Notes under the pieces: model-generated
Told to the model about the DNA's origin: nothing
Databases searched by the model: none
What the model saw: only the letters and a program-made list of their open reading frames with translations
Translations under genes and position numbers: made by a program
Source: a bacterium
GTDB lineage: Bacteria > SZUA-79 > Acidulodesulfobacterales > Acidulodesulfobacteraceae
Direction: 5' to 3'
Assembly (NCBI GenBank): GCA_021845685.1
Contig: JAJZVN010000003.1
Location: 1-64,000 of the forward strand
DNA length: 64,000 bases
Shown: positions 4,867-32,540 of the stretch, piece after piece
Position numbering within the stretch: position 1 is the first letter of the stretch
How the letters are laid out: each line of letters starts with the position of its first letter

Positions 4867-5334
4867 TTATTTTAGCGATTTTAAATAAGCGGCAATTTTA
4901 TACACTTGGCTACCAGTCAAATAAGTATATTTAGGCATTATAGCATAATATTTTTTACCGTCAATAACAACGTTTGAACCAGGCTTAAAATATCTATCGG
5001 GATTTAATATTGCTTTCATAGTCCAGCTGAATTTTTTTCCCGATTTGCCATAATGACTCAGGTCAGGACCTAACGTTCCGCCTCTTGCATTAATTGTATG
5101 GCAATTTATACAACTATAATAATTAAATAAATATTTTCCTGATTTAATATTTTTTTTTGCGGAAGAATTTGTGGGATATAATAAATTTAATCCAAAAAAA
5201 ATAGAACATAAAAACAATATAAAAATTGAATTAAATATAAAATTTTTTGACATATTTATTTGATATTTATGATTATTTTTTTTATACATTAAATCATTAT
5301 TATTATTATTAAAGTTCGCGTCTTTTTTAATCAT
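4867..5334 (-). CDS. Monoheme membrane-anchored cytochrome c
   Basis: One heme-binding motif C75-I-N-C78-H79 and a candidate distal ligand Met132 in YAIMPKY define a class I-type monoheme cytochrome. Residues 31-53 form a hydrophobic segment that would anchor it in the inner membrane with the heme domain in the periplasm. The first 30 residues are an Asn/Lys-rich cytoplasmic tail, unusual for the family; Met28 is an alternative start but the ATG at 5334 has the better GAGG ribosome site. The GGTLGPDLS pattern after the heme resembles cytochromes c that shuttle electrons to terminal oxidases. It follows the efflux genes after 70 bases and precedes an RlaP-like gene by 15. Confidence 0.85.
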   Translation of the reverse strand: MIKKDANFNNNNNDLMYKKNNHKYQINMSKNFIFNSIFILFLCSIFFGLNLLYPTNSSAKKNIKSGKYLFNYYSCINCHTINARGGTLGPDLSHYGKSGKKFSWTMKAILNPDRYFKPGSNVVIDGKKYYAIMPKYTYLTGSQVYKIAAYLKSLK

Positions 5335-24553: not shown

Positions 24554-25276
24554 ATGTTTAATCTTAACCTGACATACAGCGTTGCTTTATTTGGAGGGAT
24601 GTTAGCCTTTTTTTCTCCTTGCGTTCTACCGTTAATCCCAGGATATATTTCATTTATAAGCGGGATAAATATAGAAACACTTACTTCCGAAAAAAATCAT
24701 AAGAATATGATTCGAGTTTTTACGGCGTCCCTTGCTTTTGTTATTGGATTTTCAGTAATATTCGTAGGACTTGGAATCGGTTCGGAGACAATTTTCAGTA
24801 ATTTTCTTAAATCAAATTTAAATATAGTAAGAATAGTCGGCGGTATCGTAATTATCCTTTTTGGGCTGTACTGTCTTGGTTTATTTAAGCTGAATTTTTT
24901 AAGCAGAGAAGTTAATATTCTACCGTGGAAAAAAAAGGGCGGTTTTATAATAGGGTCCTTTGTTTTAGGCATTGCATTTGCGGCGGGCTGGATACCATGT
25001 ATAGGACCGATACTTGCATCTATTCTTCTTTATACATCAATGAACGGATCATTAACAAAATCTATTGAACTCCTATCTTTTTTTAGCTTAGGGCTTGGTA
25101 TTCCGTTTATTTTAGCAGGTCTCTTTTTAACTTATTTTATGACATTTTTTAAAAAGATAAAACGTCATTTAAATTTATTTTCAATAGTTTCAGGAGGTTT
25201 TTTGATTTTAATGGGCATACTTACTATCACAGGGAATTTTGAAGCATTATCGCAATATCTAATCGGCGTTTTATAA
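24554..25276 (+). CDS. ccdA: Thiol-disulfide transporter CcdA (SoxV-like)
   Basis: A 240-residue six-helix inner-membrane protein of the CcdA/DsbD-beta family, which carries reducing equivalents from cytoplasmic thioredoxin to periplasmic thiol proteins. The redox pair is visible as C23 in FFSPCVLPLIPGYISF and C149 in GWIPCIGPILAS. In Sox clusters the homologue SoxV reduces SoxW, which is encoded next. The ATG at 24554 is 15 bases from a strong GGAGG; in-frame ATA codons lie nearer, so the start is slightly uncertain. It leads the sulfur-oxidation cluster and is preceded by a clean promoter. Confidence 0.92.
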   Translation: MFNLNLTYSVALFGGMLAFFSPCVLPLIPGYISFISGINIETLTSEKNHKNMIRVFTASLAFVIGFSVIFVGLGIGSETIFSNFLKSNLNIVRIVGGIVIILFGLYCLGLFKLNFLSREVNILPWKKKGGFIIGSFVLGIAFAAGWIPCIGPILASILLYTSMNGSLTKSIELLSFFSLGLGIPFILAGLFLTYFMTFFKKIKRHLNLFSIVSGGFLILMGILTITGNFEALSQYLIGVL

Positions 25277-25362: not shown

Positions 25363-25887
25363 ATGATAAAGATAAAGATGATAAAACGAAAAAATGTTAT
25401 TTTGCAGATGATTTTATTATTTATTTTAACCGTATCGTTAATGGGGTCCCCGTCTGTTTTTGCCTCAAATCAAATTCATTGGGAGAATCTTTCTTCCGCT
25501 ATTAAAAACAATAAGGCAAATAAAAAAGTCTTTTTGCTCCACTTTTATTATCCTACCTGCAGTTACTGCATAATGATGGATAGAAATGTGTTCAGCAGCA
25601 AGAGGGTTATCAATTATCTTAATGCGCATTTTCATAATGTCTTGGTAGATATATATAGTCATAAAAAGGTGATGTATTTTAACGGAAAATATATGTCTGA
25701 TTCCCATATTGCATCAAAATTTAATATAACCGGAACCCCCACGGAGATATTTTTCAGCCCGACGTATAAAAAAATCTTTATTTTACCGGGATACTGGTCA
25801 AAAAACAATTTTTTACTTGTAGCAAAATGGATTGGATCAGGTAAATACAAGGTAGAAACATTAAGAAAATTTTCCCGCACCCAATAA
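25363..25887 (+). CDS. soxW: Periplasmic thioredoxin-like protein SoxW
   Basis: A 174-residue thioredoxin-fold protein with a Sec signal peptide (about 11-34, ending SVFAS). The redox motif is C66-S-Y-C69 in HFYYPTCSYCIMMDR, and the cis-proline loop is ITGTPTE (Pro126). SoxW keeps SoxY's sulfur-carrying cysteine reduced, receiving electrons through CcdA/SoxV. Its place between ccdA and soxY supports SoxW rather than a general DsbE/TlpA protein. No clear ribosome site precedes the ATG at 25363; Met6 is an alternative start. Confidence 0.85.
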   Translation: MIKIKMIKRKNVILQMILLFILTVSLMGSPSVFASNQIHWENLSSAIKNNKANKKVFLLHFYYPTCSYCIMMDRNVFSSKRVINYLNAHFHNVLVDIYSHKKVMYFNGKYMSDSHIASKFNITGTPTEIFFSPTYKKIFILPGYWSKNNFLLVAKWIGSGKYKVETLRKFSRTQ

Positions 25888-26882: not shown

Positions 26883-27212
26883 ATGAAATTAGGAGCAATG
26901 CTTATAAGAATCCCGAGAAAGGTAAAAGCGGGACAGATATTTAAAGTTATGTCAATAACGAAACATCCGATGGATACGGGTCTTGTCAAGAATCCTAAAA
27001 CGGGGAAAATAATACCTATGTGGATTATTAATAAAGTGGATATTTATTATGATAAAAAATTAGTAACGACTTGTGATTACGGCATAGCCATTTCTGCAAA
27101 TCCGTTTCTTGCCTTTTATCTTAGAGCAGACAAAAAAGCGCCTCTTGAATTTGTTGCATACGATACCCATCATAACGTCTATAAAAAAACTGTAATGGTC
27201 AATGTAGTATGA
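26883..27212 (+). CDS. soxZ: SoxZ, SoxY partner
   Basis: A 109-residue SoxZ with the immunoglobulin-like fold. Diagnostic stretches are SITKHPMDTGLVKNPKTGK (about 29-47), IINKVDIYYDKKLV and ANPFLAFYLRA. SoxZ has no export signal and is carried out with SoxY through the latter's Tat signal. AAGGAG lies six bases before the ATG. In most organisms soxZ follows soxY within a few bases; here 285 bases of repeated AT-rich sequence separate them, so the two may need independent expression control. Confidence 0.95.
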   Translation: MKLGAMLIRIPRKVKAGQIFKVMSITKHPMDTGLVKNPKTGKIIPMWIINKVDIYYDKKLVTTCDYGIAISANPFLAFYLRADKKAPLEFVAYDTHHNVYKKTVMVNVV

Positions 27213-27269: not shown

Positions 27270-27767
27270 ATGAAGAAAAAAAGGCTTATTGCGTATCTTA
27301 CGTTTATTTTTGCTTTATCCTTTTTTGCAGCAGCGTTTTTTCCCGTAAATTCATTTGCCGCAAAAATTCCAAAAGGTCCTTTTTATATTCTTAAAGTAAA
27401 AAAAAGATTTAAAAGCGCTCTGTTTGATTTAAAACAGGGGATAGAAAATGCAAACTACAGCATTCTTGCGATTGCTCCTATATCCACCGGAATAAAAGGA
27501 ATAGGATACAAGATCCCTGACCTGAAAGTTATCGACTTTTGCAAACTGATAGACGGCTATAGACTTTTAAAAGACAATATGAATTATGCTGCGTTTATGC
27601 CTTGCAGAATAGCCATCTATAAAGATGGTAAATATACGGTAATGATTTCCTTTTTACCTTCTTATTTTTCAAAATTTTTTAAGAATAACGCAGAGCAGAA
27701 AAAAACGATAACAACAGTGACGAAGCAGATTATTCAAATTATGAATTCTGTGAAGACAGGATTTTAA
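27270..27767 (+). CDS. Exported DUF302-family protein
   Basis: A 165-residue protein with a Sec signal (1-30, ending NSFAAK) and one DUF302-like domain: an alternating alpha/beta pattern with NYSILAIAPISTGIK, then DFCKLIDGYRLLK, then MPCRIAIYKDGKYTVMIS (about 107-124), the PCR...Y segment being typical of the family. DUF302 proteins often accompany periplasmic sulfur-oxidation genes but no biochemical role is established to my knowledge. It lies 57 bases after soxZ and 33 before soxB on the same strand, so belongs to the operon. Two cysteines (in DFCKL and PCRI) could take part in thiol chemistry. Confidence 0.75.
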   Translation: MKKKRLIAYLTFIFALSFFAAAFFPVNSFAAKIPKGPFYILKVKKRFKSALFDLKQGIENANYSILAIAPISTGIKGIGYKIPDLKVIDFCKLIDGYRLLKDNMNYAAFMPCRIAIYKDGKYTVMISFLPSYFSKFFKNNAEQKKTITTVTKQIIQIMNSVKTGF

Positions 27768-27800: not shown

Positions 27801-29492
27801 ATGGATTTAAAAAATATTACAAGAAGGGATTTTATAAAAAGCACGGCGCTTCTCGCAGGAGCTACGGCGATTAATCCGGTTAATCTTTTAAAGTTTAAGC
27901 CGGTAGGAAACCTGACGATAACGTGGAACTCCGATTCCCATGCGCATCTTAAGCCCGTATTATATCGTGAACCTTCCGTTAACATCGGTCCTCATTTAAT
28001 GAACGGAAGACCCGGCCATCTTGTCGGTGATGCTTTTAACCTTTATTACGATATAAATCCCGATTCCGCAATGGGTTATTTCTGTTCTTACGTGGATTTC
28101 GTAAAGCATGAAAAACAGTACGGTCTTATGGGCGGTTATGCCCACATGGCATCCGTATTCAATAAAATAAAAGCCGAAAGATACAATAAAACTATACAGC
28201 TTGATACAGGAGATGCATGGCAGGGTACAGGCGTAGCTCTCCTCACCAAAGGTATGGCGGTAGTAAATACTCAAAATGCCATGGGTTACGATGCAATGAC
28301 TGGACACTGGGAGTTTACTTACGGCGAAAAACAGCTTTTATCCAACATCAAAAAACTAAAGTTTCCGTTTATCGCTCAGAATGTTACTAATGCCACTTGG
28401 GGCGGTCTTATTTTTAAACCTTATATTATTAAGGAAGTCAACGGTTTAAGGGTAGGCATTATCGGACAGGCTTTTCCTTATGTTCCGCTTGCACACCCGT
28501 CACATTTTGTAAAAAATTGGAATTTTGGAATAGATACCTCCCATGCTCAGAAGATGGTCAATGAATTAAAAAATAAAGAAAAAGTTGATTTAGTAGTTGT
28601 CCTTTCACATAACGGTCTTGAAGTGGACAGAAAGTTTGCCGCTTTAATAAACGGAATAGATATTATAGTAGGCGGACATACCCACGACATACTTCCGGCT
28701 CCGCAGATTATAAATAATACAATAATAGTACAGGCTGGAACACACGGCAAGTTTGTAGGAAGAATAGATTTAAACGTTCAGAATAAAAAAATAATAGATT
28801 ATGACCACAAACTTATTCCGATAGTCACCGACTGGATTAAACCGGATCCGGAAATCAGCAAAATAATAGACGAAGAATTTGCGCCTTACGAACATATACT
28901 TAATGAAAAACTTGGAACGACGGAAGATTTATTATATAGAAGAGCAACATTTGTCAGTACGGTTGATAACGTTGCGCAGCAGGCATTTATAGAGAAATTT
29001 GATACTCCGTTATTTTTTGCTCCCGGCTGGCGCTGGGGGGAAACCTTACTTCCCGGTTCCGATATTACTATGGAAAATGTTTACGGTGAATACGGAACGA
29101 CTTATCCCGAGGTTTATAAAACTCTTCTTACGGGAAAACAGTTATTGTTATCGCAATTAAGTACTTTAAGCGATGTTTTTGCAAAAGATGCTTATTTGCA
29201 GATGGGCGGAGATGTAACCCGTGTTTCTAATTCAAAATTTCATTTACTTCTCAATGAGTCATTGCATAAAAGAATTAAAAGCTGGGAGATTAACGGAAAG
29301 CCGTTAGACTTGACTAAAAAATACTGGGCGGTATCGACCGGCGGAAAGATGCAAAACATGAATGCAGCCGATAAAGGATTAACAAAATTTAATGCAAGCG
29401 ATGTTATTGCAGAATACATCAGAAATCATAAAACTATTAAATCTATTAAAACAGAAGATGTTATATACAGGCATTCAAGGACGGCAGGGTAA
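27801..29492 (+). CDS. soxB: Thiosulfohydrolase SoxB
   Basis: A 563-residue dimanganese hydrolase that releases sulfate from SoxY-bound thiosulfate or sulfonate. N-terminal Tat signal ITRRDFIKSTALLAG (R8-R9). Metallophosphatase motifs: NSDSHAHLKPVLYREPSVN, QLDTGDAWQGTG, MTGHWEFTYG, VVVLSHNGLEVD and GGHTHDILP; the RE..VN and GHWEFTYG forms distinguish SoxB from 5'-nucleotidases. The C-terminal substrate domain (QAFIEKFDTPLFFAPGWRWG, VYGEYGTTYPEVY) is complete, so the enzyme should be active. A GGGGG precedes the start by about twelve bases. It is the central catalyst of the cluster. Confidence 0.97.
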   Translation: MDLKNITRRDFIKSTALLAGATAINPVNLLKFKPVGNLTITWNSDSHAHLKPVLYREPSVNIGPHLMNGRPGHLVGDAFNLYYDINPDSAMGYFCSYVDFVKHEKQYGLMGGYAHMASVFNKIKAERYNKTIQLDTGDAWQGTGVALLTKGMAVVNTQNAMGYDAMTGHWEFTYGEKQLLSNIKKLKFPFIAQNVTNATWGGLIFKPYIIKEVNGLRVGIIGQAFPYVPLAHPSHFVKNWNFGIDTSHAQKMVNELKNKEKVDLVVVLSHNGLEVDRKFAALINGIDIIVGGHTHDILPAPQIINNTIIVQAGTHGKFVGRIDLNVQNKKIIDYDHKLIPIVTDWIKPDPEISKIIDEEFAPYEHILNEKLGTTEDLLYRRATFVSTVDNVAQQAFIEKFDTPLFFAPGWRWGETLLPGSDITMENVYGEYGTTYPEVYKTLLTGKQLLLSQLSTLSDVFAKDAYLQMGGDVTRVSNSKFHLLLNESLHKRIKSWEINGKPLDLTKKYWAVSTGGKMQNMNAADKGLTKFNASDVIAEYIRNHKTIKSIKTEDVIYRHSRTAG

Positions 29493-29661: not shown

Positions 29662-30192
29662 ATGAAAAAGTCTCATTTATTTTTAAGTTTATTAACTATT
29701 TGCGCAGTTTCAATTTTCTTTCTCTCATCTTCAGGTAAGGCGGCATATGCTTTAAAGTACGGACAATCGTCTTACAGTTCCTATCCTGCGTATTATAATA
29801 CGCATCCGTTGCCCCTTCCTAAATATTTTAAACACAGAGTTATGAAAATGGTGATTGAAGTCGATTATGCAAAGCCTGCAAGATGGGGACTTGCGATTGC
29901 AAATATCAAAAATGTTATGGCGGCATTCGGCGATAACTCTTTTAAATATAAGATTGAACTTGTAGCATTTGGTCCAGGTATAAGAATGCTGATGAAGAAA
30001 TTCGATAAAAAAAATGGACCCGTTCTCCAAAGCTTGGTTACATATGGATTACAATTACGCGCTTGCCATAATACGATGTTGAAGGCTCATCTCACTAAAA
30101 AAGCACTTTTTTCATTTGTTAAAGTAGTTCCTGCAGGTGTCATAGAGATAGCAAGAAAAGAGATGCAGGGTTATACATTTTTAAAACCGTAA
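29662..30192 (+). CDS. Exported DsrE-family protein, copy 1
   Basis: A 176-residue protein: Sec signal peptide (1-30, KAAYA), Tyr/Pro-rich linker, then a DsrE/DsrF-like domain with KMVIEVDYAKPARWGLAI, YKIELVAFGPGIRML and a single mature-region cysteine in LRACHNTML (about 134). It ends with EMQGYTFLKP, a tail shared with two more copies downstream. DsrE-type proteins carry sulfur on one cysteine; most are cytoplasmic, whereas this one should be periplasmic. It follows soxB after 169 bases and is the first member of an alternating dsrE/cytochrome array. A sulfur-carrier role is inferred. Confidence 0.82.
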   Translation: MKKSHLFLSLLTICAVSIFFLSSSGKAAYALKYGQSSYSSYPAYYNTHPLPLPKYFKHRVMKMVIEVDYAKPARWGLAIANIKNVMAAFGDNSFKYKIELVAFGPGIRMLMKKFDKKNGPVLQSLVTYGLQLRACHNTMLKAHLTKKALFSFVKVVPAGVIEIARKEMQGYTFLKP

Positions 30193-30287
30193 TTAAGTAA
30201 TAAGCAGTGTTAATAAGCAGTCTAAACTAAAAAAGTCTATAATTAATTATAGAAAACAATTGTAAAAAAATTGGGAGGAGAATGTGT

Positions 30288-30725
30288 ATGAAGAAAATAA
30301 TTTTAGTTGCTTTAGCGGTTTTTTTAGTTATTTTTGCGTCATATTTTTTCAATAAAATTGCATATGCAAAGGGAAAATTAAGCAAAAAAATGATTGCTAA
30401 AGAAAAAATACAGGCAGCCTTAAAGATTGGGAAATCTATGTTTTATAGTCCTAAACTCGGGTCTAACGGGCTTTCATGCGCCAAATGTCATGTGTACAGC
30501 GTCGGTACATATATGCCAAAGATAGGTAAGACAGTTAGAAGTTTAGCGGGTGTTGCAGCTACTTTCCCAAGGTTCGATACAAAAACACATCAGATTGTTA
30601 CCATGGGAGAAAGAATCAATATGTGTATTGTACACGTGTTAAAAGGAAAACCGCTTAAAGGACAGAAATTAAATTATCTTACTTTTTATGTAACTTATTT
30701 AAGCAACGGATATAAAATTAAGTAA
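30288..30725 (+). CDS. Single-heme SoxA-like cytochrome c, copy 1
   Basis: About 145 residues from the ATG at 30288, chosen because GGGAGGAG lies nine bases upstream; an ATG at 30282 is too close. A signal or anchor helix covers residues 2-27. The heme motif is SCAKCH (C64, C67, H68). Downstream lies TMGERINMCI with a cysteine about 45 residues after the heme, then a GKPL turn and LTFYVTYLSNGYKI. This end resembles the C-terminal heme domain of SoxA, in which a cysteine serves as heme ligand and sulfur acceptor. Full SoxA is roughly twice as long, so this would be a minimal form. SoxX-like is the alternative. Confidence 0.75.
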   Translation: MKKIILVALAVFLVIFASYFFNKIAYAKGKLSKKMIAKEKIQAALKIGKSMFYSPKLGSNGLSCAKCHVYSVGTYMPKIGKTVRSLAGVAATFPRFDTKTHQIVTMGERINMCIVHVLKGKPLKGQKLNYLTFYVTYLSNGYKIK

Positions 30726-30773
30726 GAAAATTAAATAAGTTAGATAACGAAATAAATAAACAAGGAGAAGGAA

Positions 30774-31274
30774 ATGGCTATGAGTAATTTTTTAGTAAAA
30801 AAAGGTTTTTGGTATTTGAAAGGAATATTCATTCTTTCGGTTTTAGTTTTAATATATTTTAGCGGCAATGCGTATGCCTATAAAAAAATCCAGGCTCTGC
30901 CGTATTTTAAAAACAAAACCATGAAAGTTGTAATTCAAATATCTCAGGATAATCCTGCAAGATGGAATGTAGCTCTCGGCAATGCCGCTAAGGTTGTCCA
31001 AATTATGAGCGCTCACGGTATTAGTTATAAAATAGATGTAGTAGCGTATGGTCCGGGACTTAAGGTTTTCATAAAAAAGGATGATAAAAAATTCTACCCT
31101 TTGCTTCAGAGTTTAAATACTTATGGCGTTAATCTTGTTGCTTGTCATATGACGATGCTCGCTATGCATATTAATGAAAAAAAGCTCTTCCCATTCGTTA
31201 ATGTAGTATATCCGGGAGCAGTAGCTTATATTATCGAAAAAGAGATGCAAGGATATGCCTATGTAAAACCGTAA
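30774..31274 (+). CDS. Exported DsrE-family protein, copy 2
   Basis: A 166-residue paralogue of the proteins at 29662-30192 and 31879-32433. A signal or anchor helix runs from about 15 to 36 (ending NAYAYKK). The DsrE-like domain shows KVVIQISQDNPARWNVALGN, YKIDVVAYGPGLKVF and VNLVACHMTMLAMHI with the lone cysteine of the mature part in CHMTM, and ends EMQGYAYVKP. The ATG at 30774 follows AAGGAG after six bases. It sits between the two cytochrome genes, about 50 bases from each, in one probable transcript. Function as periplasmic sulfur carrier is inferred from the family and the context. Confidence 0.82.
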   Translation: MAMSNFLVKKGFWYLKGIFILSVLVLIYFSGNAYAYKKIQALPYFKNKTMKVVIQISQDNPARWNVALGNAAKVVQIMSAHGISYKIDVVAYGPGLKVFIKKDDKKFYPLLQSLNTYGVNLVACHMTMLAMHINEKKLFPFVNVVYPGAVAYIIEKEMQGYAYVKP

Positions 31275-31322
31275 ATAAAATATACGTTATTTAAATATTT
31301 AAATTTGGGAGGAATAAATAAT

Positions 31323-31784
31323 ATGCTTAAAAAAATTTCTTTAAATAAAAAAATATTTTTTATGTTTTTGTTTGTTTTGTTTACCTTAATGATTTATTTT
31401 GTTTATGTGTCGGGTCCAAAGATATCTATGGCAAAAGGCGGCGTAGTAACCCATCCGAAGACTCTTAAACAGGCGTTAGCTCTTGGAAAGCATTATTACG
31501 ACACTCCTCTCGGCGCGTCACATTTTAGCTGCGATACGTGTCATCCCGGCGGAGGAGCGGGTATTCTCGGCGGTAAGCCGACTAAGCCAGTAATAGGCGC
31601 TGCAGCTCATTACCCTACCTATAAAAAATGGGGTAAAATTATTACCATGCAGGATCAGTTTAATCACTGCATATATGTCGGAGAAGAAGGATTTAAAAAG
31701 AAGATAGGCTCTAAAGTATGGAAATATCTTGATTTATATGTTTACTCGCTTTCTAAGGGTTATAAGATAAATGTAGGAAAATAA
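31323..31784 (+). CDS. Single-heme SoxA-like cytochrome c, copy 2
   Basis: A 153-residue protein from the ATG at 31323, ten bases after GGAGG; an in-frame TTG at 31305 overlaps the ribosome site and is rejected. A membrane signal covers about 12-32. The heme motif is SCDTCH followed by PGGGAGILGGKP. Further on MQDQFNHCIY carries a cysteine at the place equivalent to the one in the first cytochrome, and LDLYVYSLSKGYKI ends the domain as in SoxA-type proteins. The two cytochromes share layout but are well diverged, so the duplication is not recent. Probably an electron acceptor for sulfur chemistry on SoxY or DsrE. Confidence 0.75.
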   Translation: MLKKISLNKKIFFMFLFVLFTLMIYFVYVSGPKISMAKGGVVTHPKTLKQALALGKHYYDTPLGASHFSCDTCHPGGGAGILGGKPTKPVIGAAAHYPTYKKWGKIITMQDQFNHCIYVGEEGFKKKIGSKVWKYLDLYVYSLSKGYKINVGK

Positions 31785-31878
31785 ATAAATTAAATTTTAT
31801 TATAATTATCGGTTTTCAATAGTAACGGCAATAAAATAAAATAAAATAATATTACGACATGAATTTACAGGAGATAAA

Positions 31879-32433
31879 ATGAAAAAAATATGGATATTGT
31901 TGATGATGGTTATGATTTCAGGGTCATTGTTATTAGCCGGATGCGCTAAAAAACCATCTGAACAGAAACCTGCTGCACCTAAATCATCTAAGCCGAAGTC
32001 TATAAAAAAAGCGCCTATGAAAGTTAAGATAAAAAAGCCCCTTTTGACAAAATCATCATACCACGGTTTTTTCAATAATAAGGTGGTCAAAGTTGTTTTT
32101 CAGGTATCGTCCCCAAATCCAAAAAAATGGAAAGTAGCTCTTGGGAATATGAATGATATAATATGGGAACTGCATTATAATCCTAAAAAATATAAAGTGG
32201 TTTTTGTAGCATACGGTCCTGCCGATAAAATGTTTCTTAAGAAAAATAATAAACTGACGCCTGTTATCGAAAAGCTCTATAAGCATAATGTAAGATTCGA
32301 CATATGCCATGTAGCAATGATTAAGTTGGGAATAAAGCCGGACGAGATTTTACCGTTAGTCCATATTACGCCGGACGGTTTTTATGCCATACTCCATTAT
32401 GAAATGCAGGGTTATTCCTATATAAAGCCGTAA
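31879..32433 (+). CDS. DsrE-family lipoprotein, copy 3
   Basis: A 184-residue paralogue with a lipoprotein signal: the lipobox LLAGC puts the acylated cysteine at residue 22, followed by a Lys/Pro/Ala-rich tether (about 23-60). The DsrE-like domain has KVVFQVSSPNPKKWKVALGN, YKVVFVAYGPADKMF and VRFDICHVAMIKLGI with one cysteine, and ends EMQGYSYIKP. Copies 1 and 2 are soluble or anchored by an N-terminal helix, whereas this one would be lipid-anchored. AGGAG precedes the ATG. It is the last gene of the sulfur cluster and is followed by a terminator-like hairpin. Confidence 0.82.
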   Translation: MKKIWILLMMVMISGSLLLAGCAKKPSEQKPAAPKSSKPKSIKKAPMKVKIKKPLLTKSSYHGFFNNKVVKVVFQVSSPNPKKWKVALGNMNDIIWELHYNPKKYKVVFVAYGPADKMFLKKNNKLTPVIEKLYKHNVRFDICHVAMIKLGIKPDEILPLVHITPDGFYAILHYEMQGYSYIKP

Positions 32434-32499: not shown

Positions 32500-32540
32500 A
32501 TATACCCCTCTTTTTTTTAAAAAAGAAAAAAGGGGTATAT
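32500..32540 (+). terminator. Terminator-like hairpin after the sox cluster
   Basis: ATATACCCC (32500-32508) pairs with GGGGTATAT (32532-32540) around a T-rich/A-rich inner stem. An alternative fold pairs the earlier GGGGATATA (32449-32457) with TATACCCC, after which TCTTTTTTTT would act as a release tract. Either way it marks the end of the sulfur operon. The 372-base gap 32434-32805 also contains a CCTGC palindrome and the promoter of the tRNA-tuf operon. Confidence 0.5.

Follow-up and report, generated by a model that had tools for sequence, protein, structure and literature searches.

The stretch of DNA analysed here (the window: 64,000 nucleotides, positions 1 to 64,000 of contig JAJZVN010000003.1, assembly GCA_021845685.1) belongs to an uncultured acid-mine bacterium of the Candidatus (Ca.) Acidulodesulfobacterales, with Ca. 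Acididesulfobacter diazotrophicus AP1 (G002) as sister species. It carries soxB and, on the 3' side of this gene and on one strand, five genes encoding in this order a DsrE protein, a cytochrome, a DsrE protein, a cytochrome and a DsrE protein. This alternation had been read in the original prediction as a periplasmic relay standing in for SoxXA and SoxCD, and its existence is confirmed by the open reading frames and by matches to PF02635 and PF21342. What is peculiar to this lineage is a derived soxA split, while the finding of wider reach is the association of exported DsrE proteins with soxB.

Gene content of the sox locus

Judged by its gene content, the locus is a truncated, predicted thiosulfate-oxidising Sox operon with the organization soxV-soxW-soxY-soxZ-DUF302-soxB-dsrE1-soxA(N)-dsrE2-soxA(C)-dsrE3, in a Ca. 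Acididesulfobacter species (Table 1). The core proteins SoxB, SoxY and SoxZ are all present: SoxB and SoxZ score above their cut-offs and SoxY scores above the Pfam cut-off; SoxY remains below the cut-off of TIGR04488 (89.6 vs 125 bits). The second cytochrome gene can start at 31305 or 31323, of which the ATG at 31323 is more likely, as it is located behind GGGAGG and yields a protein of 153 amino acids (aa), as in the sister species. The ratio of nonsynonymous to synonymous substitution rates (dN/dS) between the two species is 0.04-0.12 for the genes, pointing to purifying selection, and the five genes are thus no decaying fragments.

Table 1. Predicted features of the sox locus, with window coordinates.
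Feature	Position	Strand	Evidence
ccdA/DsbD-type membrane thiol transporter, SoxV-like	24554..25276	+	DsbD family match; equal placement in relatives L053, L055, L058
exported thioredoxin-like protein, SoxW-like	25363..25887	+	Thioredoxin_2, 62.7 bits
soxY, twin-arginine (Tat) signal; carrier arm ends in VTVGGC, Cys is the last residue	26052..26597	+	PF13501, 95 bits
soxZ	26883..27212	+	TIGR04490, 82.7 bits vs cut-off 76
exported DUF302 protein	27270..27767	+	PF03625
soxB, thiosulfohydrolase, Tat signal	27801..29492	+	TIGR04486, 624 bits vs cut-off 550
dsrE1, exported DsrE (COG1416/MTH1491 type), CHNTM	29662..30192	+	PF02635, 32 bits; orthologue clade across family
soxA N-terminal half (cyt1), CAKCH heme, Cys-ligand motif ERINMC, active-site Arg position kept	30282..30725	+	PF21342, 49 bits; TIGR04484, 66 bits
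dsrE2, exported DsrE, CHMTM	30774..31274	+	PF02635, 36 bits; model pLDDT 87, best PDB match MTH1491 (1l1s)
soxA C-terminal half (cyt2), own signal, CDTCH heme, DQFNHC	31323..31784	+	PF21342, 37 bits; TIGR04484, 62 bits
dsrE3, DsrE lipoprotein, CHVAM	31879..32433	+	PF02635, 28 bits; lipobox in 7/8 orthologues examined
possible terminator 3' of dsrE3, weak	32507..32535	+	12-pair stem; such sites no commoner in the region than in shuffles

Sox is, by profile scores, truncated here because neither SoxX nor SoxC reaches its cut-off. No SoxX match above the cut-off was found in the own genome or in 19 family genomes, while the same model gives 84 bits in G155, a genome of another family outside this group. 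SoxC was not found in the family, with a best match in the own genome of 48 bits against a cut-off of 420 (620 bits in G155); SoxD was not searched for. Statements on whole-genome absence rest on the family searches. With the metagenome-assembled genome 96% complete in 199 contigs, the absence of SoxX and SoxC is likely but not proven; the equal absence in relatives makes it stronger. A SoxX candidate at window positions 4873-5112 was rejected as a generic cytochrome that is not sox-linked (39.5 bits vs cut-off 61). The presence of soxA, soxB, soxY and soxZ and the lack of soxCD have been described before for Ca. Acidulodesulfobacterales AP1-AP3 (PMC6776010), AP1 being the sister species used here; the passages of that paper on the partial Sox system make no mention of a soxA split or of exported DsrE genes.

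We also observed that the SoxY C-terminus VTVGGC is found in 7/7 relatives (L053, L055, L058, L060, L062, L063, and L064; VTLGGC in L060). The terminal carrier cysteine occurs in all checked family members and corresponds to the usual GGCGG arm minus the final GG. Synonymous divergence (dS) from G002 reaches 0.49 in dsrE1 and 0.78 in dsrE3, compared with 0.08-0.19 for the other operon genes, which suggests gene conversion or recombination there. Counts of promoters and terminators in the region were not above those in shuffled sequence.

The two cytochromes and SoxA

Each cytochrome has a single CXXCH motif and a match to the SoxA/TsdA cytochrome domain PF21342. Against the SoxA model TIGR04484, both align with the C-terminal region and score below the cut-off of 110 bits. 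The corresponding gene order in sister genera (G009, G012, G017, and two G019 loci) is soxB, dsrE1, a gene for a diheme protein of 270-277 aa, dsrE2, (dsrE4), and dsrE3. Three copies of the fused diheme protein were scanned and gave 140-145 bits, above the SoxA cut-off. The N half of this protein shares 68-82% identity with cyt1, and cyt2 can be aligned with the C half. A tree places cyt1 with the N halves of the fused SoxA and cyt2 in a nested position within the C halves (98/86). By domain, alignment and tree, cyt1 and cyt2 are the two halves of SoxA, apparently separated by gene fission around dsrE2, which is how the alternation would have arisen. The split and the alternation were found in this species (G000) and G002 only. 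The alternation is thus recent, and from the tree we regard the split as most simply derived, with dsrE2 now lying between the pieces. The alternation carries no mechanistic message, as the SoxA of sister genera is a fused diheme protein encoded ahead of dsrE2. The original description of single-heme cytochromes is correct in that each has one CXXCH, but it did not recognise their SoxA-type identity, and the idea that they stand in for SoxXA is not supported, as both are SoxA halves.

Other origins of the two genes were considered. Unrelated c-type carriers are ruled out by the SoxA domain and the fused orthologues, and an assembly error by the occurrence in two species, the own signal peptides and ribosome sites, and purifying selection. 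A fusion of two ancestral single-heme genes is less likely given the nested position of cyt2. The tree of SoxA halves has several long branches, and a history of multiple fusions is not formally excluded. A structure model of SoxA was discarded, having a predicted local distance difference test (pLDDT) value of 32 and being built on only 4 sequences.

Alignment indicates a CXXCH heme with a cysteine at the distal-ligand position in both halves (CAKCH and ERINMC in cyt1, CDTCH and DQFNHC in cyt2). The invariant active-site arginine (TsdA Arg119, four residues before the ligand cysteine, Cys-4) corresponds to Arg in cyt1 and to Gln in cyt2, and Gln is also found in every C half of the family and in the monoheme relatives G003 and G005-G007. 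From this, cyt1 looks the better candidate for the catalytic half. The pair thus resembles the SoxA of SoxAX (TIGR04484; PDB 1h31, 2c1d) in its heme domain with a Cys ligand, in its location beside soxB, soxY, and soxZ, and in having fused sister-genus orthologues above the curated cut-off. It differs in consisting of two separate single-heme genes, in the lack of a SoxX above cut-off, and in the Gln of cyt2.

A further single-heme SoxA-like protein with Arg at Cys-4 is encoded away from sox genes on contig C198 (81.4 kb) of the own genome (L043, 5387-5827, 34 bits), and G019 carries two diverged soxB-dsrE-soxA clusters (L056, L057).

Exported DsrE proteins beside soxB

The three DsrE proteins all score above the PF02635 cut-off of 22.7 bits. 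As originally predicted, they share the CHxxM cysteine motif and the EMQGYxxxKP tail, both exact in all three (tails EMQGYTFLKP, EMQGYAYVKP, and EMQGYSYIKP in DsrE1, DsrE2, and DsrE3, respectively), and all have predicted export signals, with hydrophobic N-termini, AYA-type sites in DsrE1 and DsrE2, and the lipobox LLAGC in DsrE3. The cysteine is invariant in 38/38 family sequences, as the prediction had required of its orthologues, and is a candidate sulfur-carrying residue. Within the family, DsrE1, DsrE2, and DsrE3 fall into three separate orthologue groups. The DsrE2 model (pLDDT 87) has a template modelling (TM) score of 0.94 to MTH1491 (1l1s) and also matches DsrEFH chains (2hy5), indicating a DsrE/DsrEFH fold. 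The proteins thus share the fold and the conserved Cys position with DsrEFH/TusBCD, YchN, and MTH1491 (COG1416), but are exported by a signal peptide or lipobox and are encoded in a sox rather than a dsr/tus operon. Membership of a cytoplasmic DsrEFH/TusBCD heterohexamer is contradicted by these signals, and contig C165 encodes a distinct DsrEFH-like set.

We found comparable genes in other bacteria. The Sox locus of G155 contains soxX, Y, Z, A, B, and C, ccdA, and two exported DsrE genes, with a SoxD-like cytochrome recognised by position only. The plasmid-borne sox cluster of Sulfurovum mangrovi has DsrE, DUF302, and DsrE genes downstream. In the DsrE tree, the S. mangrovi protein nests among sequences from the phylum of genome G346, which is therefore probably Campylobacterota. 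A survey covered one soxB locus per genus in 20 genera of this phylum and, in the class of G155, each of the seven genomes in which soxB was found. Exported DsrE genes were located at most 8 kb from soxB in 18/20 genera of the phylum (0.24 genomes expected by chance placement) and in 6/7 genomes of the class (0.09 expected); the observations on exported DsrE near soxB come from L118 (14647-15594), L131 (8977-10825), L133-L136, L138-L141, and L143-L157. In G505, G510, and G619, the sox-linked exported dsrE is the sole copy. In the same phylum, exported DsrE of this type occurs in 20/20 soxB-positive and 0/20 soxB-negative genomes, figures to be read with the facts that the query alignment included sox-linked sequences, that the genomes are related, and that the soxB-negative set comes mostly from few families. 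Six of the seven sox loci first met outside the family have no exported DsrE in about 5-10 kb on each side, two of these being on short contigs.

From its distribution, exported DsrE looks like a widespread, unnamed Sox accessory that is multiplied in this lineage; it tracks soxB in at least three bacterial groups and looks like an overlooked general Sox partner. The assignment of the DsrE proteins to the Sox system, with their candidate sulfur-carrying cysteine, is thus the part of the original prediction that holds. Sox-linked DsrE genes have been recorded as single cases without explanation in Sulfurovum (PMC10045233) and Sulfitobacter (orf2; PMC11034169), and no paper naming or explaining the exported family was found in the open-licence literature. 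In both cases a DsrE family gene is located beside soxB; the Sulfurovum protein is exported as well, and in Sulfurovum indicum the sox-adjacent dsrE, soxW, and soxH1 are up 2.2-3.8-fold on thiosulfate (PMC10045233). These clusters have one or two DsrE copies and an intact soxXYZAB, in contrast to the three paralogues and split soxA described here. In G718 (C1:1764679-1772858, L153), three identical-scoring DsrE copies with a spacing of 3,883 bases were seen next to sox. Each visible repeat also contains two thioredoxin-like genes, and the arrangement corresponds to tandem repeats of a thioredoxin-DsrE segment.

Possible fates of the sulfane sulfur

In three relatives (G017, G019, and G010), dsrE3 is followed by genes for a TetR protein, TusA, a PF04143 transporter of the YeeE/SoxT family (two copies were scanned, with 163-165 bits), a DsrE of cytoplasmic type, and an exported rhodanese. 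An NHL protein gene between those for TetR and TusA was seen in G017 and G010 but not in G019. The own genome has this module (TetR-NHL-TusA-YeeE-DsrE-exported rhodanese) on contig C61 (L048), with a second TusA further on, as well as DsrA, with a related gene next to it, on contig C9. Because the importer module, DsrA, and DsrEFH-like genes are all present, a route from SoxYZ via exported DsrE, the importer, and TusA/DsrE to Dsr is plausible, each transfer step being one that we infer. We lean, by a narrow measure, towards a truncated Sox operon with soxA split around dsrE2, in which exported DsrE would accept the sulfane sulfur of SoxYZ and pass it toward import into the Dsr pathway. The two SoxA halves would still cooperate in conjugating thiosulfate to the SoxY cysteine, and SoxB would release sulfate. 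As SoxCD was not found, the remaining sulfane sulfur on SoxY would be accepted by the cysteines of exported DsrE, one of which, the lipoprotein, is possibly membrane-anchored. From there the sulfur would move to an importer of the YeeE/SoxT type acting with TusA and cytoplasmic DsrE, and the imported sulfur would feed the Dsr pathway of the cell. A similar organization is known from Hyphomicrobium denitrificans, which also combines a truncated Sox system without SoxCD, a YeeE-like importer (SoxT) with TusA, and cytoplasmic sulfur oxidation (PMC11582611). There, DsbA or SoxS has been proposed to release the sulfur from SoxYZ, whereas exported DsrE is the candidate here, and the cytoplasmic route is sHdr, where it would be Dsr here; how sulfane sulfur crosses into the cytoplasm is stated as unknown (PMC11582611).

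Several observations weigh against this reading. Exported DsrE also accompanies SoxC in G155, and sulfur removal in place of SoxCD is therefore not its sole role. The importer module of the own genome is not linked to sox. The genome encodes a further exported DsrE-like protein without any Cys (own_C197, L128, 5400-5867), and the family can thus lose this residue. In 2/20 genera of G346's phylum, exported DsrE is located elsewhere than near soxB. Finally, Gln takes the place of the SoxA active-site Arg in cyt2 as in all C halves, and the catalytic heme domain is therefore not readable from sequence.

The presence of exported DsrE in Sox systems with SoxC agrees with a role in maintaining SoxYZ, in which DsrE, together with SoxV/SoxW, would remove or swap surplus sulfane sulfur or clear dead-end disulfides from the SoxY arm, with no feed to import. 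Such a role also fits the adjoining genes for thioredoxin-like, CcdA, and DUF302 proteins, with which SoxYZ maintenance proteins are usually found. We nevertheless consider it unlikely, as DsrE is multiplied where SoxC is missing and the array adjoins the TusA-PF04143-DsrE-rhodanese module in the three relatives, pointing to transport. It is more doubtful still that the SoxA halves form a TsdA-like thiosulfate dehydrogenase producing tetrathionate, uncoupled from SoxYZ, with cyt1 as catalytic and cyt2 as electron-transfer domain. The Arg kept in cyt1 and not in cyt2, TsdA structures among the best PDB matches, and the lack of a detected SoxX are in line with this activity, but the genes share an operon with soxY, soxZ, and soxB, the fused orthologues pass the SoxA equivalog cut-off, and cyt2 keeps its Cys ligand.

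The least probable scheme, and a very improbable one, is the relay of the original prediction, in which sulfur passes between DsrE cysteines and is oxidised by the neighbouring heme proteins replacing SoxXA and SoxCD. It draws on the gene alternation and on the search for SoxX and SoxC elsewhere in the genome, which gave no match above cut-off. However, the heme proteins are SoxA halves by the evidence above, which largely refutes the SoxXA part, sister genera with equal gene content show no alternation, and other phyla have DsrE without extra cytochromes. No observation points to sulfur on DsrE being oxidised by heme. The mechanism is thus unsupported in its main part, the replacement of SoxXA, while its other part, periplasmic sulfur carriage, may hold; a replacement of SoxCD agrees with the lack of SoxC in the family but is weakened by the exported DsrE in the G155 operon with SoxX and SoxC.

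As a tentative generalization, which we rate as possible yet short of probable, exported DsrE would be a general Sox component, a periplasmic acceptor that takes sulfane sulfur from SoxYZ and either supplies importers of the SoxT/YeeE type or returns the sulfur to Sox; in the SoxCD-less Acidulodesulfobacterales, this component would be multiplied and accompanied by a split SoxA. With its two heme domains present as two proteins, the split SoxA amounts to a natural experiment. Exported DsrE is a concrete candidate for the exit of sulfane sulfur from SoxYZ and, being present in cultivable organisms, makes the question testable.

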